Shown piece by piece: positions 10,401 to 12,114 of a stretch of 39,795 nt of DNA. A program made the position numbers and the translations under genes. The DNA is taken from contig JAFGTS010000008.1 of assembly GCA_016933965.1 (NCBI GenBank), positions 1-39,795 on the forward strand, given 5' to 3'. Under the pieces are notes generated by a model. That model did no database searches, was not told the DNA's origin, and saw nothing but the letters and a program-made list of their open reading frames with translations. Position 1 is the stretch's first letter. Each line of letters opens with the position of its first letter. The DNA comes from Deltaproteobacteria bacterium (GTDB lineage Bacteria; Desulfobacterota; Syntrophia; Syntrophales; UBA2210).

Positions 10401-11693
10401 ATGTCAAACGTCGTAATAGTGGGAACACAATGGGGAGACGAGGGAAAGGGGAAGATCGTCGATCTCTACGCCCGGGAGGCCGATGTGATCGTACGGTTTC
10501 AGGGGGGCAACAACGCCGGCCATACGCTGGTCGTCGGCGGAGTTCAGACTATTCTTCACCTGATCCCCTCGGGAATTCTTCATGAGGGCAAGACCTGCAT
10601 CTTAGGAAACGGCATGGTCATCAATCCCGAGGTCCTGCTCCAGGAGATAGATGAACTGCATGAAAAAGATCTCTTTCCTTCCACGACGGAGCTCCACATC
10701 AGTGAGAACGCCCACATGATCATGCCCTATCACCGGCGGATCGACAGTGCCCGCGAAGGGCGCAGGGGCGGCCGGAAGATCGGCACCACGGGCAGGGGCA
10801 TCGGTCCCGCCTACGAGGACAAGATAGCCCGGACGGGGATACGGTTCGGACAATTCATCGATGAGAACACCTTCAGGGAACTTCTGCTGAAGAACATGGA
10901 GGAAAAGAACTTTCTCCTGACACGGTTCTTCGAGGAAGAACCCCTTGACGCCGAGGCGGTATTCGAAGAGTACCGCCGATACGCTCTGCGGCTCCGCCCT
11001 TACGCAGCCGATACGTCGCTGATCATCCGGCGGGAGATCGACCGCGGCAGGCACGTGCTCTTCGAGGGAGCCCAGGGGTGCCATCTCGACATCGACCACG
11101 GCACCTATCCCTACGTGACCTCATCGAACACCGTTGCGGGGAACGCCTGCTGCGGAGCCGGCCTCGGGCCGACCGACATAGATACCGTCATTGGCATCTG
11201 CAAGGCCTACACGACCAGGGTCGGCAAGGGCCCCTTCGTAACGGAGCTTGACGATGCCGTGGGGGAAAGGCTCCAGAGCATTGGTAAGGAGTTCGGTGCC
11301 ACGACAGGGAGAAAACGCCGGTGCGGCTGGCTTGACGCGGTCCTGGTGCGGCAGGCCGTGAGGCTTTCGGGAATAACCGCCCTGGCCGTCACGAAGCTCG
11401 ATGTACTGACCGGGATCGATCCCCTGAAGGTATGCGTGGGATACGAGGTCGACGGCGACCGATACGAGGAACACGTCCCCTCATCCAGTGATGTCATCGA
11501 GCGCTGCACCCCCATATATGAAGAGATTGAGGGATGGTCCGAAAACATCAGCGGCGCCCGCAGGAAAGAGGACCTGCCGAGAAATACCAGAAGATACATT
11601 GAGCGGATCGAGGAGCTTGCCGGTGTCAGAGCCGTTTTGATCTCCGTCGGCCCCGGCCGGGAAGATACGATCATAGTGGAAAGTCCCTTTTAA
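10401..11693 (+). CDS. purA: Adenylosuccinate synthetase
   Basis: A 430-residue cytoplasmic enzyme that joins IMP and aspartate using GTP, the committed step to AMP. The glycine-rich P-loop GDEGKGK is at 12-18, the IMP-loop region GNNAGHTLV follows, and GTTGRGIGPAYEDK and the C-terminal TTGRKRRCGW stretch are family hallmarks. Length matches the normal 425-435 residues. It begins 21 bases after serA with a GGAG site and is followed by rsfS only about 20 bases downstream. Confidence 0.98.
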   Translation: MSNVVIVGTQWGDEGKGKIVDLYAREADVIVRFQGGNNAGHTLVVGGVQTILHLIPSGILHEGKTCILGNGMVINPEVLLQEIDELHEKDLFPSTTELHISENAHMIMPYHRRIDSAREGRRGGRKIGTTGRGIGPAYEDKIARTGIRFGQFIDENTFRELLLKNMEEKNFLLTRFFEEEPLDAEAVFEEYRRYALRLRPYAADTSLIIRREIDRGRHVLFEGAQGCHLDIDHGTYPYVTSSNTVAGNACCGAGLGPTDIDTVIGICKAYTTRVGKGPFVTELDDAVGERLQSIGKEFGATTGRKRRCGWLDAVLVRQAVRLSGITALAVTKLDVLTGIDPLKVCVGYEVDGDRYEEHVPSSSDVIERCTPIYEEIEGWSENISGARRKEDLPRNTRRYIERIEELAGVRAVLISVGPGREDTIIVESPF

Positions 11694-11697
11694 GAAC

Positions 11698-11708
11698 AGG
11701 AGGTGATC
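11698..11708 (+). promoter_or_regulatory. Strong Shine-Dalgarno of rsfS without a normal start codon behind it
   Basis: AGGAGGTGATC (11698-11708) matches the 16S rRNA 3' end over 11 bases. No ATG, GTG, TTG or CTG in the rsfS frame follows: an in-frame TGA lies at 11704-11706 and the next codons are TCT, ACG, GTT, ATA, GAA. The first codon must be one of ACG (11710), GTT (11713) or ATA (11716). Confidence 0.8.
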
Positions 11709-11715
11709 TACGGTT

Positions 11716-12114
11716 ATAGAACCAAAGATAGACACGAAATCCCTTGTCCTTGCCTGCGCGAATGCAGCGCTGGAAAGAAAAGCAAAAGACCTCACCATTC
11801 TCAAGATAAAAGAACTCTCATCATTTACTGATTTCTTCATTATTTGCAGCGGCAGTTCCGACCGCCAGGTATCGGCGATCGCGGACGCCGTCGCGGAAAA
11901 GCTGAAAAAGCTCGGGATCTTACCCCTGGGGATCGAGGGCGCCCGCGGCGGCAAATGGGTCCTTATGGATTACGGCGACGTGGTAGTTCACGTCTTTTAT
12001 GAACCGGTCAGGGAATTTTATGATATCGAGCGGCTCTGGTCCGATGCCCCCGGCATGGTGATCGATGACTCGGAACGCGAGATCACGGCACTCAGTGATG
12101 AACTGGAACCTTGA
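11716..12114 (+). CDS. rsfS: Ribosomal silencing factor RsfS, non-standard start
   Basis: About 132 residues. RsfS binds ribosomal protein L14 and blocks subunit joining when nutrients are short. The family core is clear: ELSSFTDFFIICSG, SDRQVSAIADAV, PLGIEGARGGKWVLMDYGDVVVHVF and FYDIERLWSDA. The frame is intact from just after the ribosome-binding site to the stop, but no normal start codon is available between the in-frame TGA at 11704 and codon GAA at 11719. I give ATA at 11716 as a provisional first codon; ACG at 11710 has the best spacing to AGGAGG. A one-base assembly error (for example GTT for GTG) is the plain alternative. The ComF-type gene starts inside its 3' end. Confidence 0.85.
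   Translation: MEPKIDTKSLVLACANAALERKAKDLTILKIKELSSFTDFFIICSGSSDRQVSAIADAVAEKLKKLGILPLGIEGARGGKWVLMDYGDVVVHVFYEPVREFYDIERLWSDAPGMVIDDSEREITALSDELEP

Follow-up and report, generated by a model that had tools for sequence, protein, structure and literature searches.

The rsfS locus was analysed within a window comprising the whole 39,795-nucleotide stretch of contig JAFGTS010000008.1, from a bacterium of the order Syntrophales; all features named here lie on the plus strand. The upstream gene is an open reading frame with an ATG start (10401 to 11693), which we take, from sequence resemblance, to be purA (adenylosuccinate synthetase). Read directly from the sequence, AGGAGGTGATC (11698 to 11708) begins 4 nt past the purA stop and forms an extended Shine-Dalgarno (SD) element that matches the standard SD word over 11 nt, with a score of 11.0 that is equalled, among the scores listed, only by G035. 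The RsfS frame is closed upstream by an in-frame TGA (11704 to 11706) and continues with TCT (11707), ACG (11710), GTT (11713), ATA (11716) and GAA (11719). The rsfS coding frame (11713 to 12114, stop TGA at 12112 to 12114) spans 133 residues counted from GTT, or 134 from ACG. It corresponds to a full-length RsfS (ybeB) and passes both curated cut-offs, matching PF02410 (RsfS) over profile positions 3 to 98 of 98 (E 7.4e-34, 116.3 bits, cut-off 21.6) and TIGR00090 over 4 to 99 of 99 (E 3.2e-34, 117 bits, cut-off 56.9). It is the only rsfS copy in the assembly.

As assembled, the window places this strong 11-nt SD before an odd codon, with no ATG, GTG or TTG in frame at a usable SD distance. 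The earliest such codon in frame is the ATG at 11965 (located by eye), deep within the domain, with 49 codons remaining. In-frame CTG codons are present, the earliest at 11770, but they lie within the conserved domain, and the closest upstream GTG (11703) overlaps the SD one base out of the RsfS frame. The sequence-only reading had described both a strong SD without an in-frame ATG, GTG or TTG start and the above codon series leading into an intact frame; the assembled sequence bears out both descriptions.

Three codons are candidate starts. GTT (11713 to 11715), 9 nt past GGAGG, is preferred and occupies the slot (7 to 9 nt) that holds ATT, GTT, ATC or GTC in relatives; we give it about an even chance of being the start. 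ACG (11710 to 11712) lies 6 nt past GGAGG, the spacing of the infC ATA, and is a possible but more doubtful start, while ATA (11716 to 11718), at 12 nt, is less likely. ACG is one change from ATG, whereas GTT is two positions off and not a usual near-cognate start; the relatives show ATT and ATC as well as GTT. When two stretches of rsfS and one of infC were folded as RNA, none gave a signal over shuffled sequences (z 0.08, 0.76 and 0.73).

For the survey of the order, ATG, GTG and TTG were taken as canonical, and a strict lack means that the RsfS frame contains none of them from the upstream stop to the domain. rsfS was matched in 146 of 155 Syntrophales genomes, the set of 155 being unchanged when the search was widened to the class, and 110 loci were examined; the 36 matching genomes outside this set belong mostly to family f14, in which all 14 examined loci carry TTG. 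A strict lack was found at 13 of the 110 loci: the window (G000), G003, G005, G008, G014, G016, G021, G036, G052, G057, G112, G113 and G144. All four loci of genus g25 fall in this class, including G052, a single-contig genome of 3.2 Mb and 100% completeness, so draft assembly cannot account for all cases. At six further loci (G001, G004, G032, G048, G145 and G146), the sole canonical codon is a GTG overlapping the SD.

Within the window's family (18 loci including its own), 6 loci show the strict lack and 13 have no SD-supported canonical start. Genus g3 of this family carries an upstream in-frame ATG in 5/5 genomes, SD-backed in three, which sits 9 to 11 codons before a conserved ATC; outside g3, no ATG lies in frame ahead of the domain in any of the 12 other family members examined. 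At the g3 loci L020, L021, L022, L024 and L025, the ATC is kept 5 to 6 nt past an SD, and either it or the upstream ATG could be the start. The comparison of relatives for a GTG or ATG at the start, proposed in the sequence-only reading, therefore has a divided outcome. The family counts lend support to its idea of a rare start as in infC or pcnB, but some relatives do carry a canonical codon: the upstream ATG of g3, the SD-overlapping GTG of G001 and G004, and the weakly SD-supported GTG or TTG of G006 and G009. The non-canonical start recurs among relatives without being universal. Across the order, rsfS apparently tends to weak predicted starts, TTG in most families and ATT, ATC, GTT, GTC or CTG in several.

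The codon at the SD-spaced position was then considered under a rule that accepts a canonical codon as start if an SD lies 3 to 12 nt from it. An SD-supported canonical start is present at 72 of 109 loci (TTG 67, ATG 3, GTG 2; G123 was dropped for masked bases), among which the TTG of G009 and the GTGs of G006 and G048 (score 4.0 in the latter) are doubtful; 37 loci have none. A second rule, which sets a different limit on the distance between start and domain, yields SD with TTG at 68 loci, a canonical codon without SD at 19, strict lack at 13, SD with ATG at 5 and SD with GTG at 4. The SD was misplaced in several non-canonical rows (e.g. f9, f13, f14 and G112), and a per-family tally is left out.

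Slot analysis was restricted to the 27 of these 37 loci with an SD score of at least 5.5; the 10 weak-SD loci set aside include likely canonical starts (e.g. the f9 ATG) as well as G003 and G021 (ATC at 4 nt). The slot 7 to 9 nt past GGAGG holds ATT, ATC, GTT or GTC at 21/27 loci (ATT 11, GTT 7, GTC 2, ATC 1), and in 11/16 genera by majority. Such codons occupy the 10 to 12 nt slot at 8/27 loci (3/16 genera), and every other slot at fewer loci. Two of the 21 matches, G045 and G057, also carry a CTG at 5 nt, from which they may in fact start. The exceptions are G015 (g3; ATC at 5 nt, upstream ATG), G029 (ATT at 6), G146 (GCT), G036 and G112 (ATT at 10) and G059 (no slot candidate, upstream ATG). 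In genus g6, the SD-to-ATT distance shifts by one nucleotide (7 in two loci, 8 in four), as expected if coding begins after that distance. From these patterns we infer that translation begins at the odd slot codons.

Control genes from the same order were examined by the same kind of scan, taking the best-scoring 30 loci per gene. Among these best 30, no locus without a canonical start was found for frr, rpsO (by eye), rbfA or hpf/yfiA, so that, judged from these four genes, odd starts are not a general trait of the genomes. The rpsO loci (L252 to L281) have an in-frame GTG near the expected start in 30/30 sampled (by eye), and appear uniformly non-ATG. The infC gene, encoding initiation factor IF3, presents a different picture: the best 30 loci of the order (L192 to L221, with the window's own genome as L207) carry ATA in 29/30 and ATC in 1/30, always 6 nt past GGAGG, with a strict lack of canonical codons in 24/30. 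Odd starts are thus common to rsfS and infC, but not to hpf, another ribosome hibernation gene.

In a sample of the wider phylum, rsfS was matched in 106 of 108 genomes, and 68 loci outside the order were scanned (28 + 40). A strict lack was found at four of the 68, with ATC (L284), ACG (L286) and CTG (L304 and L344) identified by eye; a canonical codon of some kind is in frame at the remaining loci, though not always where expected. In family f26 (L284, L297 and L312), an ATC following a GAGGT word is conserved, and L284 is without any canonical start. In family f40 (L333 and L350), the rsfS start may be ATT; the sole in-frame TTG found there sits inside the domain. In a tree built from 109 RsfS rows and 113 columns, with hand-assigned state labels and many forks unresolved or weakly resolved, canonical versus other starts require 7 changes (bootstrap 6 to 8), of which the well-supported branches force only 1. 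The rsfS loci of the order are not independent.

SD strength follows the codon class. The nine loci of the GTT/GTC/GCT/ACG type (window included, and G146 counted with its genus) have SD scores of 9.3 to 11.0, against a maximum of 9.0 among the 67 TTG loci and a range of 5.0 to 8.3 at ATT/ATC loci; this contrast is visible within families f1, f15 and f18. The pattern fits a longer SD that would offset a weaker codon. It also bears on a rather improbable alternative, in which the GTG within GGAGGTG is the true start wherever it is in frame and only the strict loci are odd. This GTG is indeed in frame in all eight relatives with a GTT, GTC or GCT slot (CTG loci set aside), and because the extra SD-matching bases also form the GTG, compensation and a GTG start are not fully separated. 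However, the GTG overlaps the main SD, and its own SD scores only 2.0 to 4.0. Eleven loci of other families (f16, 8/8; G025, G026 and G028) that have a GTG in frame at this position retain a TTG directly behind it, and in f17 (G034 and G060) an in-frame TGA and then a TTG come after the GTG. Extended anti-SD pairing accounts for the GGAGGTG word, and we read its GTG as probably part of the extended SD. A GTG start is in any case inapplicable to the window sequence as it stands: its GTG is out of frame, and the 11-nt SD is nonetheless intact.

The odd start of the window could also reflect a consensus or assembly error, a one-base substitution or indel concealing a canonical codon. The window does come from one draft assembly of 55 contigs, and the GTT relatives G001 and G004 of the same family have the SD-overlapping GTG in frame where that of the window is one base off. 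Yet restoring the frame of these relatives would yield only that SD-overlapping GTG, and the oddity would persist; moreover, no in-frame ATG precedes the domain in the 12 other family members outside g3, and the strict lack recurs at 12 other loci. Since relatives share the missing canonical start, a one-base error, which the sequence-only reading had offered as its alternative, is weakened to an unlikely explanation and is not the likeliest cause. Decay of rsfS into a pseudogene, or a frameshift product initiated at the out-of-frame GTG (11703), would account for the missing canonical start and for a GTG that opens another frame, but is very improbable: the domain is complete and scores strongly, the SD has stayed long and the gap short, and the SD-internal GTG is already in frame in the GTT relatives, where no frameshift is needed. 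For the window, a pseudogene was rejected on its full-length RsfS domain (PF02410 and TIGR00090). An upstream in-frame start with a long N-terminus has a precedent in the g3 ATG, 9 to 11 codons before the conserved ATC, but the other 12 strict loci have no canonical upstream codon. In the window it is barred by the in-frame TGA at 11704 and was rejected, which leaves this explanation scarcely credible.

We therefore favor an intact rsfS whose non-canonical start is probably set by an unusually long SD, as part of a lineage-wide pattern (probability about 0.72). The missing and recurrently missing canonical start, the slot enrichment, the infC ATA and the canonical starts of the four control genes are all read directly from sequence. 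Several loci count against the favored interpretation. The in-frame, SD-overlapping GTG of G001 and G004 means that the window could differ from these GTT relatives by a one-base insertion. The slot is GCT in G146 and is preceded by a CTG at 5 nt in G045 and G057; the upstream ATG is present throughout g3 (five genomes), and G059 has no slot candidate. G035 carries an ATG 2 nt past the SD, presumably too close to it to serve.

To our knowledge, bacteria rarely use natural starts outside ATG, GTG and TTG, and the most familiar examples serve regulation. In Escherichia coli, pcnB starts with AUU, an inefficient codon that limits its translation; the limitation by an inefficient start would be shared with rsfS, although the gene and its function differ. 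infC is autoregulated through its non-canonical start. Like rsfS here, infC (AUU, AUA or AUC) encodes a blocker of subunit joining and couples a strong SD with a start outside ATG/GTG/TTG. The infC start is controlled by the gene's own product, whereas rsfS would be a target of it, and the rsfS codons vary (TTG, ATT, ATC, GTT, CTG and ACG), GTT being no usual near-cognate. One report mentions infC autoregulation and describes Staphylococcus aureus infC, cvfC1 and ccpN as coupling AUA or AUU with extended SDs, the ccpN start being AUA and that of cvfC1 AUU (PMC13009471). In poor medium, the reporter output of cvfC1, ccpN and citZ was about 10% of that from AUG; in rich medium, ccpN reached as much as 30% (PMC13009471). 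ccpN and cvfC1 thus share with rsfS a conserved non-canonical start and an extended SD, the lower-than-AUG reporter output being theirs; they are other genes from another phylum, with experimentally mapped starts (PMC13009471), whereas the rsfS start is predicted here from sequence.

For E. coli rsfS itself, a further study describes a UUG start, with translation that peaks in exponential phase and shows no polyamine effect (PMC10917681). This weak start resembles the TTG of most families of the order, but UUG is standard under translation table 11, and the window and several families go beyond it. Polyamines are reported to favor weak starts, and the unresponsiveness of E. coli rsfS counts against such regulation (PMC10917681). 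A literature search over the titles and abstract openings of the papers listed found no report of a non-canonical rsfS start. rsfS would add a gene to an already known type of device, represented by infC, pcnB and ccpN.

In the proposed mechanism, a weak start codon would hold the RsfS level low. Since IF3 rejects such codons, RsfS output would rise when there is too little IF3 for the 30S subunits present, and two anti-association factors, IF3 on the 30S and RsfS on the 50S subunit, would be tuned together. RsfS blocks subunit joining, and both IF3 and RsfS are up in E. coli lacking RimM (PMC13246957). An IF3-sensitive feedback fits this joint rise as well as the infC ATA in the order; taken with the S. 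aureus weak-start reporters (PMC13009471), the joint rise suggests a low rsfS translation rate that would be higher when IF3 is scarce. Putative IF3-sensitive control of RsfS would be a reasonable inference. More tentatively, rsfS and infC might form a small IF3-sensing regulon of the order, both being translated from codons rejected by IF3, with GUU as a natural start in some lineages, made workable by an SD duplex of 9 to 11 bp.

These observations suggest that gene callers limited to ATG, GTG and TTG would miss or truncate rsfS in these genomes, since the first canonical in-frame codon of the window leaves only 49 codons. If the conserved set holds, the output of the 50S anti-association factor would be tied to IF3, its 30S counterpart, and the rsfS set would lend itself readily to testing how free subunits are balanced in cells.
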